Source: Phaeodactylum tricornutum CCAP 1055/1 (Eukaryota > Bacillariophyta > Bacillariophyceae > Surirellales > Neidiaceae). Taken from it: a stretch of DNA of 64,000 nt. Numbering within the stretch: the first letter of the stretch is position 1; each line of letters starts with the position of its first letter. Under the pieces are notes generated by a model, which was not told the origin of the DNA, did no database searches, and saw only the letters and a list, made by a program, of their open reading frames with translations. The translations under genes and the position numbers were made by a program. The stretch spans positions 62,001-126,000 of the forward strand of contig NC_011684.1 in NCBI RefSeq assembly GCF_000150955.2, read 5' to 3'. This document shows, in pieces, positions 2,600-62,861 of this stretch.

Positions 2600-4000
2600 T
2601 CATCTCCTTTCGTGGTCATCCATGTGACAAACGACTCGCTCCAAAAAGATTCTTTGGGCGGCGTCCGTTAGCAGTTCGTCCAGAGCCAAATTTTCACTCA
2701 TTACTAGGTACTGTTGCGGCGATAGGTAGTCTTCAGGAAGCCAGCTAGCTTTGGCAATACCGCGGGCGCCAGAATTGTGATCCTGCCCATCCTGTCGCGC
2801 GTGTTGGGAAATGAGCGGACGCACGCGGCGAGTCAAGACCGACGTGTCCCGAAATCCCAAGACGGATTGAACCAGCTTTCCAGCATAGGCCAACCACTCC
2901 ATATTTAAAACCAGGTGATACCGAAGAAGCGTATCGAGCGCATTCCCCAAGGCTTGAGCACCTTGTTCCATATCCTTGGAAGATTGCGACAATGCCAGAC
3001 GGCCCATCCGTGGCGTGTCCGAAAAAGTGGCGGTATACACATTGTACAAATCGCGACGATGCTCCCACCAGGCTGTAATGTTTTTGTACTTGCAGCCCCG
3101 GTCTTCCACACACTCAAACCGAAATTGCGAGAGTGCACGATGCAACGGTCGACGAAACGAGGTTACAAATACCGCCGGTAATTCGAAATAGCGTGTGGCG
3201 TCGAACCGATCCCACTCATTCCCCGCAATCCAATGACTTCTTCCGCGCATATTGCTGAGGATTTCCTCATTCGACCACTGTTGCAAGCATCCCGCACATG
3301 CTTGAGGGCGATGGCTACCTTTACTATCCTTTCGTTTCCAATAGTAGTCAGGCATACAGTAGTAGGAAGGTACGTGTGCCGTGGGCAAGTTGGCCTGGGC
3401 CAAGGTGCAGAAATTTGTACCGCCTGCCTTGCGCAAGTGTTGAAAAAAGATGAAGGCCATGCTGCTGTTATCAGTCGGTATTGTCTGGGCGTCGGCCAGC
3501 TGCCGCCGCAGCTGGGCCGCCAGTGTATGGTTCCGTTGGTCTGGCAGCGTAATGCGGTCAGTTGGACACGAAAAAAGACCTTCTAAAAGTCGCGGATTAT
3601 TCAGCGCGTTTCCACCAGACGCGTCCAGATTTTCTTCCGCTTGAAGAATTTTCTGTTCCATTTCTCGCACTCCAAAGGGATCTTCCGTTTGCAAGGTCTG
3701 CAGCAGGCTCGCGGGAGGCAACCGAGCCAGATTAACAACAAGCTGGCGCCAACCAGCATAGTCACTGACATTTTGTTCACCTTCGTCGATTTTTCCAGCC
3801 ATTTTCAAGGACGGCAAGGAACTGTCGTTGGGAACTGGGTAGGAAAACAAAACCACAGTCAACGCAAAGTAATAAAAGGCTATCAGTGAGCTGCACACAG
3901 CCACTATGACAGTGATAAAGAAAGCCTTGGATTTTGACTGGGACCGTTGTTGCTGCCGAAGCAAAGGACGACCTCGCCTTCGGGTGACATGCATTATCAT
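2600..4000 (-). CDS. Type II membrane sulfotransferase-like protein
   Basis: About 466 aa from the ATG at 4000; an in-frame ATG at 4120 would add 40 residues of unconvincing sequence. A basic N-terminus (RRRGRPLLRQQQR) is followed by one hydrophobic anchor (FFITVIVAVCSSLIAFYYF), the layout of a Golgi type II enzyme. The luminal part carries FFQHLRKAGGTNFC, which resembles the 5'-phosphosulfate (PAPS) loop HIPKTGGT of carbohydrate sulfotransferases, and later VFVTSFRRPLHRALSQFRF, which resembles the 3'-phosphate motif (RxPxxRxxSxF). Both motifs are conserved in spacing, so PAPS-dependent sulfation of a secreted glycan or protein is a reasonable inference. Acceptor unknown. A TTCACAGTC motif lies about 160 bp upstream of the start. 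Confidence 0.75.
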   Translation of the reverse strand: MIMHVTRRRGRPLLRQQQRSQSKSKAFFITVIVAVCSSLIAFYYFALTVVLFSYPVPNDSSLPSLKMAGKIDEGEQNVSDYAGWRQLVVNLARLPPASLLQTLQTEDPFGVREMEQKILQAEENLDASGGNALNNPRLLEGLFSCPTDRITLPDQRNHTLAAQLRRQLADAQTIPTDNSSMAFIFFQHLRKAGGTNFCTLAQANLPTAHVPSYYCMPDYYWKRKDSKGSHRPQACAGCLQQWSNEEILSNMRGRSHWIAGNEWDRFDATRYFELPAVFVTSFRRPLHRALSQFRFECVEDRGCKYKNITAWWEHRRDLYNVYTATFSDTPRMGRLALSQSSKDMEQGAQALGNALDTLLRYHLVLNMEWLAYAGKLVQSVLGFRDTSVLTRRVRPLISQHARQDGQDHNSGARGIAKASWLPEDYLSPQQYLVMSENLALDELLTDAAQRIFLERVVCHMDDHERR

Positions 4001-57381: not shown

Positions 57382-58566
57382 TTACAGTAAGAAGAGAACA
57401 AGAGAGAGCGCCATTATGCACATACCAGCAATGAAGGAGTAAGTAACAACGGAATCTTCGGGATCGTAGCGATGCGCCGTCGGCAATAGTTCGCGAGTGG
57501 AAATAACTACCATCATACCCGAAACTATGCCGAACAGTATCCCGTATAGCTTATCCGAAAAGGAATTGGCCAAGATGGCCCATCCCAAAAGCGCTGCAAA
57601 AGGTTCGGACATGCCCGACAGCATAGCCCAGCCAAAGGCCTTCCAGCGGTTGCCCGTGGCGTAGTAGACGGGCATGGCGACACAGAGACCTTCGGGAATA
57701 TTGTGTATGGCAATAGCGACGGCCAGTACACCTCCCACTTTGGGATCTCCAAGCGTGGCGACAAAAGTCGCCAAGCCTTCGGGGAAATTGTGAATTCCAA
57801 TTGCCAGCGCAGTGTTCAAACTCATGCGCATGAGCTTCTTGGAATCCTTGGTTTCCGGCGTGTCCTCCTCGTCCGGAGATCCTGGAGAATCGCTCTCTTC
57901 GGCGACGAAAGTACCTTCCCACGTCTTGTTCTGATTCTCGGTGGTTTCAATTTCGGCCGCCATATTGTGAAGGGTTTCAAGGTCGGCGGCCGGGTCGTCC
58001 GAGCAGCACGGGAGGTTGGCGTGATCTTCGTTGCTCATGCGCCGTGGCAGAACTTCTTGGTCGACGTTGCTGATTTCTTGAGTACCAGTAGGACCTTTAT
58101 TGGATGACTGGTCGGGGCTGTGGTGGTGATGTCCTCCAAGGAGACAGGACACCATGGAATTGAGTATCTGCAGAGAAGAGGCAACAAGTATCGAACGTTT
58201 AGTAAGGTTCTAGCTTCTGCCATACTGGTAAATAGAAATCGATTGAAAGGTCATATCAATACGTACCACCATGAGAACAACACCACCGAAGAAGCACAGA
58301 GTGGCATAGATGTAGGCAGTATCCTCTTCGATACCCGAATCTTCAAAAGCTGAAGAGGCCTTGCCAAATATCTCGACGAATGAGACGTAGACCATGACAC
58401 CAGCTGACAGACCCAAAGCGCCGGCCAGAGTTCGGCGCGAGGCTAATCGAACCAGAGCCGGAAAAAAGACTACGGCAGCCCCAAGACCCGTAGCCGCCCC
58501 GGCGCCGATAACAAGCCCGAAGGCCATGCCCACATTGTCCTTGTCTTCACTGTTGATACCAGACAT
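57382..58566 (-). CDS. ZIP family metal transporter 3
   Basis: Exons 58267-58566 and 57382-58167 with a 99-nt intron (GTACGTAT donor, CTCTGCAG acceptor), same phase and place as its neighbours; about 361 aa. Exon 1: MSGINSEDKDNVGMAFG, then GLVIGAGAATGLGAAVVFFP. Exon 2 begins ILNSMVSCLLGGHHHHSP, with LPCCSDDPAADLETLHNMAAE in the loop and IGIHNFPEGLATFV plus IAIHNIPEGLCVAMP in the helices. It is closest to ZIP 1 by eye. The three genes lie head to tail within 5.4 kb on the minus strand. Presumed plasma-membrane or organelle importers of divalent metal. Confidence 0.9.
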
Positions 58567-58824
58567 GATTGAGTATGCGTTCTTTATCCGCTGATCAGAT
58601 AGATCGCTCACGAGGTAAATGTACCTGAGATTTATGGGCAATTCTGTTGGCGTTTGTGGATACGCAAGCTTGACGTCTGCGGTTGTACCCTGAAGATTTT
58701 TTACATGTACAATTTAAAAAATCTTCTACTATTACAAATTAGTTGGCATCTTCTACGGCAAGCGTCAAGAATTCTGATTTTCAAGTCGTGATGAGTGACA
58801 TATGGAACTTGGACAGTGCTATAA
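58567..58824. other. ZIP 3 upstream region
   Basis: Presumed promoter of ZIP 3 (minus) and short leader of the interrupted plus-strand frame. A TTTTTTAC...AAAAAATC pair of weak inverted sequences is near 58695-58728. No other feature. Confidence 0.4.
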
Positions 58825-58956: not shown

Positions 58957-58965
58957 TTTATTTTC
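58957..58965. repeat. Target site duplication, left copy
   Basis: TTTATTTTC, directly before the left TIR, identical to the copy at 60542-60550. Confidence 0.85.
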
Positions 58966-59163
58966 GAGGAAATTCACTAAAGGGGATGGAAAAAGGTAAA
59001 AACTCCCTTAAAGGGGACAGAACGTGTTCACTCTAAGTAGCATCATTTGACACTCAAACATTGTTATGTATTCAAACTATTTAAACTAAACAACAAAATT
59101 TTAACCTTGATGCCGACGTTTCCCGCCACGATGTTTATTGCATGGTGTCCGATGAGAGTGAGA
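58966..59163 (+). repeat. Left terminal inverted repeat of the Mutator-like element
   Basis: 198 bp, reverse-complementary to 60344-60541 with four substitutions and no gaps (positions around 58997, 59050, 59052 and 59146). Homology stops at GATGAGAGTGAGA. Confidence 0.9.
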
Positions 59164-59610
59164 TATGCGATCGTACTCGTCTTCGTCGTTGGTAAAAAGT
59201 GCCACCCACCGCTTGGGATGCTGAACAATCAACGTACCTCGCATTCGGACGACGACGCGATTGCTGGAGATCGAACGACGTTGTGGCGGTCGTCGAAGAC
59301 TCGGAGGGGTCGACGATCCCTTCCAAAATTCGATGGGGATCGTACAAATAAAACGTAACCTCGGCATTGACGTGTGCCCGTGAATGCTTGTCATGTTGGG
59401 GCTGCTTTCTCATCCAACACGCAGACTGTCTGCGGAGCAAAGTGCATCTGACCAGTGCCGTCAACGTCAACGTTGGGGGGATGAGGGGTGGCGGGAGGTG
59501 GACGAAGCCCGACGTAACGGGTCATCGGTGATTTATAGTCTACCGCAACGTGTGGAGGGTGGGGTGCCACCCTGGGATGCCCATAACCCTACCATTCCCC
59601 GACGACGATG

Positions 59611-60092
59611 ATCTTGGTGTGGATCAGTCGATGGCGTTTGAAACCGTGACCAAATTGGAACCAGTAGATGCTTCCGTTATTGAAGCCGGCAAGAAATTAG
59701 CGACAGGTATTTTCTTGACCAAGGATATTGTCAACGCCCCGCACAACGTCTTGAACTCGCTTTCGCTTGCCGAGACAGCTAAGCGCATTGCCGAGCAGAA
59801 CGGTGGACGGATCATTTGTGAAATCCTCGACAAAGAGGCCTGTGACGCCCGCTGTATGGGTGGCTTCCTTGGAGTAGCGCGCGGCAGCGAAACGCCTCCT
59901 CAGTTCATCCATTTAACCTACACTCCACCCTCGGGAAAAATTTCCAAGAAGGTCGGAGTCATTGGGAAAGGCCTCCTCTTCGACACGGGCGGCTACAATA
60001 TTAAGACCGCCATGATGGAACTCATGAAGTCTGCACTGAAACACCGCGTTGGTCGATTTTCCAAGGTCCTGTACTTTTTACTGAGCACATGA
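59611..60092 (+). pseudogene. Captured leucine aminopeptidase (M17) fragment
   Basis: Within the element the plus-strand frame (open from 59550) encodes about 145 residues from the middle of a leucyl aminopeptidase: GKKLATGIFLTKDIVNAPHN, then LNSLSLAETAKRIAEQNG, CDARCMGGFLGVARGSETPP, and VGVIGKGLLFDTGGYNIKT, the conserved catalytic-site KGxxFDxGG region. The match stops near MMELMK (about 60027), before the second metal-ligand segments, and the frame then runs into unrelated sequence and a stop at 60092. The N-terminal domain and the C-terminal catalytic half are missing, so it cannot be an active peptidase. It is most likely a copy of part of a host gene elsewhere. Confidence 0.75.
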
Positions 60093-60343
60093 TTCAGGCT
60101 GAACCATGCAGCTTGGAGAGCTTTAAAGGAAGGAAACGTATCTCCGACGGCTATCATCATGCTCAGAGTGCATTGTTTGGAAAGCCCTACAATGAAAACG
60201 TTTCCGTTACGAGACTCCTTCGACGGTCCAGGACCAACTAATCCAGAGACTCGCTGCCGTTGCAGCCTTCCAGATTGTCGCCCGAAGTCCCCAACGAGGT
60301 TTGCTACCGTAACAAACGTGAATTTGCGAGTGGGTTGCCCTGT

Positions 60344-60541
60344 TCTCACTCTCATCGGAGACCATGCAATAAACATCGTGGCGGGAAACGTCGGCATCAA
60401 GGTTAAAATTTTGTTGTTTAGTTTAAATAGTTTGAATACATAACAATGTTTGAGCGCCAAATGATGCTACTTAGAGTGAACACGTTCTGTCCCCTTTAAG
60501 GGAGTTTTCACCTTTTTCCATCCCCTTTAGTGAATTTCCTC
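60344..60541 (-). repeat. Right terminal inverted repeat of the Mutator-like element
   Basis: 198 bp, the inverted partner of 58966-59163; begins TCTCACTCTCATCGG on the plus strand and ends GTGAATTTCCTC. Confidence 0.9.
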
Positions 60542-60550
60542 TTTATTTTC
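60542..60550. repeat. Target site duplication, right copy
   Basis: TTTATTTTC, directly after the right TIR, identical to the copy at 58957-58965. Confidence 0.85.
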
Positions 60551-61454: not shown

Positions 61455-62861
61455 CTACGCCAACGTGTCGTAGTACCGTGACGCATTTGTGACAGAGTTT
61501 CCGGGGTAGCGGAAATAGTCGCGCAACAAATAGCGCGCCGTCTCGATCCCGACGTCGTGTACCCAGCCATCGAACCAGTCCTCCATGGAATCTTCGGGTC
61601 GTCCACCGGCACCGGCGGCGGCCTTGGCGTCGTAGACACGTCGGGAGCGGCGCGTATCGTTACGCGCAACGTAGCGTTCCCAGGTTCCGAGGTAGTGAAA
61701 GACGGCGAGGGGGTAACGGTTCGGTGTGCGCAGATTGAGTTGCTCGATGCGTCGACACAATACTTTGGATGGTCGATGTATGGAAAATGCCTGTTGCCAG
61801 AGTTCGTCGGGGGCGGGTACCCGGGAGACGTCCACTAGTGTTTTGGGTTGGGCGTTGTAGACGGTATCGTTGTAGGCAGCGTGGTAGCGCCAGCGGAGGG
61901 TTTCGAAGCGTTGGGGATTCGCGGCGGCTGTGCCAGCAGTGGTTGTCGTCGTGACGACCGAACGATTGGTTTCCATCGCACCAAACAAGAGTCGCGGCAT
62001 GGACACGCAAGAATGGTGAGCGTTGGCGGCGCGGGCTTGGACGTTATCCCGGAGCAGTGCGTTCCAGAACCGGAACAAACAGCCGGGCTGGACGAGCTTG
62101 ACCGGTACAACGGGCGACCCTGCCGTCGTGTGTGGCCGACGCCGGATTGGATTGAGGGTCAAATATTCATCGGTATCGACGTGGAGTACCCAGGTTGCGT
62201 TCCGCTCCCGCCAGTGGCGGTAACAGTGTGTGAGGAGTGTGACTTGACGGTAGCGGTGATTGTTGATACGGGTGCGATCGGCGACGACTTGCGCGGCCGA
62301 TTCGTGACCCACGTGCCACTGGGAGCGTTGGGCGTCGCCCGAGACGTAGCGGGGTGGAATGTGGTAACCGAGCGTCCGGAAGGATTCCGGCAGATAATCG
62401 ACGTCGTCCCAGACTCGCACATCCAGATCGGTCACTTCCGTCCAACGCGTGAGAGTCGCGCGGGGCGAAGTACGACTGCTGGGGTCGACGGCGACGAGCA
62501 AATGACGGAGATTCCAAACGTGATAATGGTAGGCAATCCATTCGTCGAGAATGTCGTTGTCGTCTTTGATCAAAAGACAGGCCGCGAGCGAGTCGGACGT
62601 GGATCGTTGGCTTTGTTGTCGGGACCGCGAGGAAGGACCGTGCCAGGCCATGGGACGGGATGGAATCAGCGTATCCGTAGCGGACGGTGTGTCGGAACGC
62701 CACACTCTGTCGTTCCGCCACCACCACCAGCCCGAGACGAGGAGGGCGCAGACGCCCCGGCACGGAATGTTCCCGGTCCGACGGCGCATTCCGATCGGTC
62801 GTTTCCGTGACGCTCGACACCACGGACTGGTGGTGACCCCCCGTGTACCGATTCCTACCAT
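61455..62861 (-). CDS. GT92-like glycosyltransferase, type II membrane protein
   Basis: 468 aa (an internal Met gives about 444 aa from 62789). The N-terminus is basic, followed by a short hydrophobic/Trp-rich segment (GVCALLVSGWWWW) that could be the anchor. The domain starts AACLLIKDDNDILDEWIAYH, with HVWNLRHLLVAVDPSS after it, the opening of GT92/DUF23-type transferases (a K-N-E-x-x-x-x-EWxxYHxxxG pattern). The metal-binding DxD is WVLHVDTDEYLT. The close includes NRYPLAVFHYLGTWERY and GRPEDSMEDWFDGWV. Members of this group add galactose or related sugars to glycans in the Golgi. Donor and acceptor cannot be stated. Confidence 0.75.
   Translation of the reverse strand: MVGIGTRGVTTSPWCRASRKRPIGMRRRTGNIPCRGVCALLVSGWWWWRNDRVWRSDTPSATDTLIPSRPMAWHGPSSRSRQQSQRSTSDSLAACLLIKDDNDILDEWIAYHYHVWNLRHLLVAVDPSSRTSPRATLTRWTEVTDLDVRVWDDVDYLPESFRTLGYHIPPRYVSGDAQRSQWHVGHESAAQVVADRTRINNHRYRQVTLLTHCYRHWRERNATWVLHVDTDEYLTLNPIRRRPHTTAGSPVVPVKLVQPGCLFRFWNALLRDNVQARAANAHHSCVSMPRLLFGAMETNRSVVTTTTTAGTAAANPQRFETLRWRYHAAYNDTVYNAQPKTLVDVSRVPAPDELWQQAFSIHRPSKVLCRRIEQLNLRTPNRYPLAVFHYLGTWERYVARNDTRRSRRVYDAKAAAGAGGRPEDSMEDWFDGWVHDVGIETARYLLRDYFRYPGNSVTNASRYYDTLA

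Follow-up and report, generated by a model that had tools for sequence, protein, structure and literature searches.

In a single plant Pack-MULE, fragments of two or more genes may occur together. In rice and other plants, these elements are described as combining the ends of Mutator-like elements (MULEs) and target-site duplications of 8-11 bp with the loss of the transposase and the presence of host-gene fragments between the ends (PMC6446971), and the literature covered treats gene capture of the Pack-MULE type as a topic of plant research. MULEs as such have already been reported from diatoms: in the work of Dupeyron et al. 2019 (PMC6446971), group 37 (MULE-Diatoms) comprises diatom MULEs with a SWIM finger, and its row in the table gives terminal inverted repeats (TIRs) of 123-124 bp and duplications that are either none or unstated. 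The same source presents the red-algal MULE-Cc, from the Jittery sub-group, as a MULE with 'various inserts, potentially host derived', in a description that names no donor genes. The Phatr3 annotation, for its part, counts 152 MuDR copies (PMC5859163), and includes classes of MITE and putative non-autonomous class II repeats into which the 607-bp copies described below would fit, captured genes not being named in that part of the annotation paper.

The element considered here lies in a stretch of 64,000 nucleotides of Phaeodactylum tricornutum CCAP 1055/1 (the window, on contig 16 in the numbering used below), and is very probably a non-autonomous Mutator-like DNA transposon with the identity of a Pack-MULE: there are host-gene fragments inside MULE ends, there is no functional transposase, and the cargo is found at two sites with different duplications. 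It is like the plant Pack-MULEs in its general organization, and unlike them in its diatom host, in the two copies found with this cargo and in the retention of an N-terminal remnant of the transposase. The resemblance to the MULE-Diatoms is found in a 635-aa transposase of the same genome, which has both a MULE and a SWIM domain, although the TIRs are here of 198 bp (193 bp in an intact relative) and accompanied by 9-bp duplications, when compared with the table row of that group. MULE-Cc is likewise an algal MULE with inserts, but from a red alga. A sequence-only reading of the window had suggested that a diatom example might be undescribed, and indeed no described diatom Pack-MULE was found in the open-licence literature, which is weak evidence of absence. 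This is, in short, a serial-capture Pack-MULE, a known kind of element in a host group for which no earlier report was found. As a donor-resolved diatom case in which capture was serial, relatives have empty sites and the genome also contains an intact MULE, it provides a compact non-plant model for the pick-up of genes by transposons.

Structure of the element

The element comprises 1,576 bp (58966-60541), and its parts are listed in Table 1. The 198-bp inverted repeats with four mismatches that had been noticed at first sight were borne out by the comparison of the arms, which are complementary at 194 of 198 positions (mismatches at arm positions 33, 85, 87 and 182), and so was the perfect 9-bp direct repeat, which stands directly outside both ends. 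Apart from this target duplication, the flanks of the arms, both inner and outer, are dissimilar between the two ends. A chance origin of the TIRs and the duplication is excluded, because the TIR recurs genome-wide and all of the 11 close copies whose ends were placed have perfect 9- or 10-bp duplications of differing sequence.

Table 1. Features of the element and their positions in the window
Feature	Position	Strand	Remarks
Left target-site duplication, TTTATTTTC	58957-58965		Directly outside the left end
Left TIR, 198 bp, starting GAGGAAATTCAC	58966-59163	+	Arm comparison; multi-copy in the genome
Left internal sequence (element 199-619)	59164-59584	+	Whole or part common to other close copies; part in older relatives (74-82%)
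Contig 6 host-gene piece	59586-59657	+	Donor contig 6, 63381-63578, minus strand, with 126 bp absent in between
Captured M17 aminopeptidase gene piece	59658-60030	+	Donor contig 5, 485178-485557, minus strand; 5 mismatches in the window copy
Predicted 171-codon open frame from ATG	59577-60092	+	Joins the contig 6 and aminopeptidase pieces; ends in the transposase remnant
MULE transposase gene N-terminal coding remnant, ~45 codons	60039-60163	-	Shares 26 of 49 aligned residues with the intact 635-aa protein
Right internal sequence	60164-60343	+	Common to the 1,037-bp copies, and mostly to the 1,419-bp copy
Right TIR, 198 bp	60344-60541	-	Arm comparison
Right target-site duplication, TTTATTTTC	60542-60550		Directly outside the right end

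Regarding the surroundings, the neighbouring frame at 58210-58641 (minus strand) has a match to ZIP transporters that stays below Pfam's cut-off, its near edge being about 0.3 kb from the insertion, and the one at 61455-62861 (minus strand) matches glycosyl transferase family 2 with a score slightly over that cut-off.

Family copies and their insertion sites

The search for family copies covered 27,450,724 bases in 88 contigs (the longest contig seen being of 2,535,400) and returned at least 121 pieces matching the whole element (40 of 77 candidates scored) and at least 41 matching the TIR (40 of 87 candidates scored), both copy numbers being lower bounds. Both ends could be placed in 11 close copies, i.e., those of 1,576 bp on contigs 16 (the window) and 12, 1,419 bp on contig 1, 1,037 bp on contigs 25 and 8, 618 bp on contig 21, 607 bp on contigs 7, 30, 9 and 2, and 430 bp on contig 5. 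Each of them has its own perfect target duplication, of 9 bp in ten cases and of 10 bp in one. Pooled, these duplications are 86% A+T, compared with 57% in the flanks. Left out of the 11 are a solitary 180-bp TIR fragment with neither a second end nor a duplication (contig 2, 1037266-1037445; L028) and the divergent relatives L020-L027, because their ends could not be resolved. Two of the latter showed imperfect duplications (9/10 in L020 and 8/10 in L026), and none was seen in the other rows tried of that set.

Family members frequently show internal deletions. The copies on contigs 25 and 8 have their break at the same left position, element 619, and are joined there straight to position 1183; this fits the filling of an already existing break without proving it. 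In the four 607-bp copies, around 8 extra bases resembling the terminal TTTCCTC are present at the internal deletion (element ~460-468; sequence seen for the contig 7 copy), which might point to a rearrangement in which an end of the element took part.

Empty sites were searched with the joined flanks of the 11 insertions, scoring 19 of 19 candidates for contigs 16, 12, 1 and 25, and 40 of 47 for the remaining seven sites. Uninterrupted counterparts with a single target copy exist for three of the sites. For that on contig 25, all five counterparts aligned are uninterrupted, their right side reaching about 30 aligned bases past the junction; the contig 7 site has one, aligned over 260 bp at 98%; and the contig 5 site has one aligned over 229 bp at 99.6%, apart from which more than 20 further listed matches span the junction. 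The contig 12 site has a partial counterpart (contig 18, 645719-645851), in which some 110 bp of the left flank are followed by a single diverged target copy (7/9) and by 10 bp of the right flank. For the window site, no uninterrupted counterpart was found in this assembly with 19 of 19 candidates scored. The same was the result for six other sites, including those on contigs 8, 30, 9, 2 and 21, where, with 40 of 47 candidates scored, absence is unproven. These empty counterparts are repeats or paralogous places, and not proven alleles.

Captured gene pieces and their possible acquisition

The larger piece of host DNA (element 693-1065) consists of 373 bp of an M17 aminopeptidase gene from contig 5, the 654-codon frame of which is unbroken in the donor; in BLAST, the alignment runs on to 60038 at the cost of a further mismatch and a gap. 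What had been read as a whole captured peptidase segment is a real peptidase cargo (Peptidase_M17, E 2.3e-27), but a partial one, with about 124 of the 654 codons and positions 2-106 of the 310-position catalytic-domain profile, and it comes with a piece of a second host gene. This 72-bp piece (element 621-692) derives from a gene on contig 6 with a 438-codon frame and a weak match to PIG-X/PBN1 (E 2.5e-4; 21.5 bits, compared with a Pfam cut-off of 23). The two pieces are joined in frame, each of them keeping the frame of its own donor. The contig 6 piece lacks 126 bp of its donor, which leaves the frame intact; deletion would be preferred over splicing as the cause, since ATC is present at both edges of the gap and GT...AG ends are absent. 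A retrocopy origin of the cargo was rejected on the same gap, the unbroken donor frame of the aminopeptidase being uninformative in this respect.

Two copies with this cargo were found (40 of 77 candidates scored). The second one (contig 12, 434556-436131) is 99.2% identical to that of the window and has the same cargo but another duplication, ATTAATTTA, which indicates that the element moved after the capture. Together with the empty sites of the relatives and the transposase remnant, this copy supports the Pack-MULE nature that had been proposed for the element. The contig 1 element, in turn, contains a longer piece of the contig 6 gene, which is ~84% identical and has this internal gap as well, and lacks the aminopeptidase.

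Based on this last element, capture would have taken place at least twice and in a defined order, with the contig 6 gene first and the aminopeptidase gene second, the latter taking the place of what remained of the contig 6 piece. In the simplest succession, the element would have lost most of the transposase, captured the contig 6 DNA, exchanged part of this for the aminopeptidase piece and, finally, transposed. Regarding the way in which the cargo was taken up, excision of the element could leave a gap that is incompletely repaired, and the repair synthesis could switch into host genes and rejoin with little or no homology; we would give this gap-repair route an even chance. There is an alternative that overlaps with this explanation and differs from it only in the entry of the cargo, namely, that the element is a deletion derivative of a MULE whose host DNA arrived through an unrelated event of end-joining repair, the family having no tendency to capture genes. 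The commonness of internal deletions in the family is in line with it, and so is the fact that no host-gene piece was identified in eight of the 11 placed copies (those of 607, 618, 430 and 1,037 bp); however, the pieces of two unlinked genes were gained in one element lineage, where the later piece took over part of the earlier one, and we regard such accidental entry as rather unlikely.

Age and fate of the captured DNA

Between the two cargo copies, 12 of the 1,576 positions are different (0.76%), and the aminopeptidase piece has diverged from its donor at 5 or 6 of 373. Combining these divergences with the mutation rate of 4.77e-10 per site per generation given for P. tricornutum (PMC6604790), the common source of both copies might date from roughly 8 million generations ago, and the capture from roughly 14 to 18 million generations ago (computed 14.1 and 16.9), few changes lying behind either estimate. 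The element, initially described as young, can be called moderately young, and only in a relative sense, given the differences between its cargo copies. When nine copies were compared at the four TIR mismatch positions, the left-arm states at 85 and 87 appeared also in the contig 12 copy and that at 33 also in the contig 1 copy. Since only the mismatch at 182 is private to the window copy, the TIR divergence may overstate the age of the window insertion. The mismatch counts between the TIRs of the contig 1 copy itself are inflated by indels and were not used.

The published figures for P. tricornutum (4 x Ne x mutation rate) imply a neutral diversity of about 1.7% (PMC6604790), and the 0.76% that separates the cargo copies is lower, so that differences in presence or absence among strains are plausible. 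A broader view, according to which this would be a still-mobile diatom MULE system that repeatedly captures unlinked host genes and fuses them in frame, with insertions varying between strains, is put forward tentatively and is, on balance, doubtful; if true, transposons would be shuffling genes in a stramenopile alga much as they do in plants.

As for the cargo itself, it looks like a decaying fragment. Among the window copy, the contig 12 copy and the donor, eight sites differ along element 693-1066, seven of them changing the amino acid and one silent, the last of the eight (position 1066) sitting at the match edge; on these few sites, this is the substitution pattern to be expected of a fragment under free drift. 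Most likely, the captured piece is carried along as a passenger and undergoes neutral decay. Could the chimeric 171-codon frame instead be a new gene, or a source of antisense or small RNA, kept by selection? A single open frame accommodates both host pieces, each in its own reading frame, and the 126-bp loss preserves it, but the catalytic-domain profile is covered only in its first third or so (positions 2-106), and the predominance of amino-acid-changing differences, few as the sites are, gives no sign of purifying selection, which makes such a role very improbable.

Related transposases and movement of the element

The remnant on the minus strand beside the cargo is 53% identical to the start of the 635-aa transposase (E 2e-16). 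Within the window element, only residues 2-49 of the transposase were matched, the last few of the 49 aligned residues running into the cargo, probably by chance, and a Pfam search with the remnant-bearing frame gave no match. A functional transposase is absent from the element, while the N-terminal remnant is still there. The 635-aa protein (MULE, PF10551, 2.6e-9; SWIM, PF04434, 2.9e-4) is encoded identically on contigs 9, 18 and 29. On contig 29 there is an intact MULE of 3,698 bp (95032-98729), with 193-bp TIRs that have a single mismatch and with the 9-bp duplication TAACATAAA on both sides. Its ends, GAGGAAATTCCC, agree with those of the window family in 11 of 12 bases. When both TIRs were compared over their first 60 bases, an equally good score was reached by 9 of 2,000 shuffles, whereas over bases 13-70 as many as 1,120 of 2,000 were equal or better, i.e., there is no likeness above that of shuffled sequences. 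The intact MULE of contigs 29, 18 and 9 was rejected as direct parent of the window element, as the TIR similarity stops after ~12 bp.

Other relatives, on contigs 32 (L026), 4 (L025) and 3 (L027), have TIRs that are 73-83% window-like at both ends, placed around decayed C-terminal pieces of the transposase, and such pieces also adjoin a related TIR at two further loci, on contigs 3 (L021) and 20 (L023). At a MULE-domain place on contig 8, a broken transposase lies beside a window-like end. An intact transposase between window-type TIRs was not found in the 12 of 19 MULE-domain places read (about 1.5 kb per side, and wider on contigs 18, 8, 29 and 9). The contig 8 locus (L046, 979800-985000) has a contig 29-type end on the left (position 555) and a window-like one on the right (3819-3933; 83% like the window TIR), with no shared duplication, and may consist of two abutting elements.

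The window family has target duplications within 8-11 bp, long TIRs and a relation to a MULE-domain transposase, and its membership in the MULEs rests on protein evidence besides duplication length. The remnant, the intact related MULE and the TIR relatives enclosing decayed MULE transposase all support the Mutator-superfamily assignment made beforehand. An origin from another superfamily with 8-9 bp duplications could be argued because duplication length alone does not separate transposon superfamilies, but it is all but refuted, and exceedingly improbable, given the MULE transposase remnant in the element and the decayed MULE transposase in elements with related TIRs. For the Mutator-like element, a MULE transposase acting in trans from another locus would recognise the ends, the source being either the intact 635-aa protein of contigs 9, 18 and 29 or a closer relative not found; that the 635-aa protein itself moved it is quite possible, although we lean slightly against it.

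A recent capture of host DNA within the intact MULE was also considered, and rejected, since L045 from 3000 to ~4226 matched only contigs 18, 9 and 29 (40 of 82 candidates scored). The copies on contigs 18 and 9 share an inserted repeat with an LTR layout, identical as far as fetched, the contig 29 copy being without it. This repeat starts at ~266825 on contig 18 (L045 from 4226) and at ~98348, running downward, on contig 9, and has an end repeat of ~468 bp, with its second copy at 272916-273384 and 91789-92257, respectively. Given that the two contigs have the insert in common but not the outer left flank, the MULE may have been mobilised with the LTR-layout element inside.
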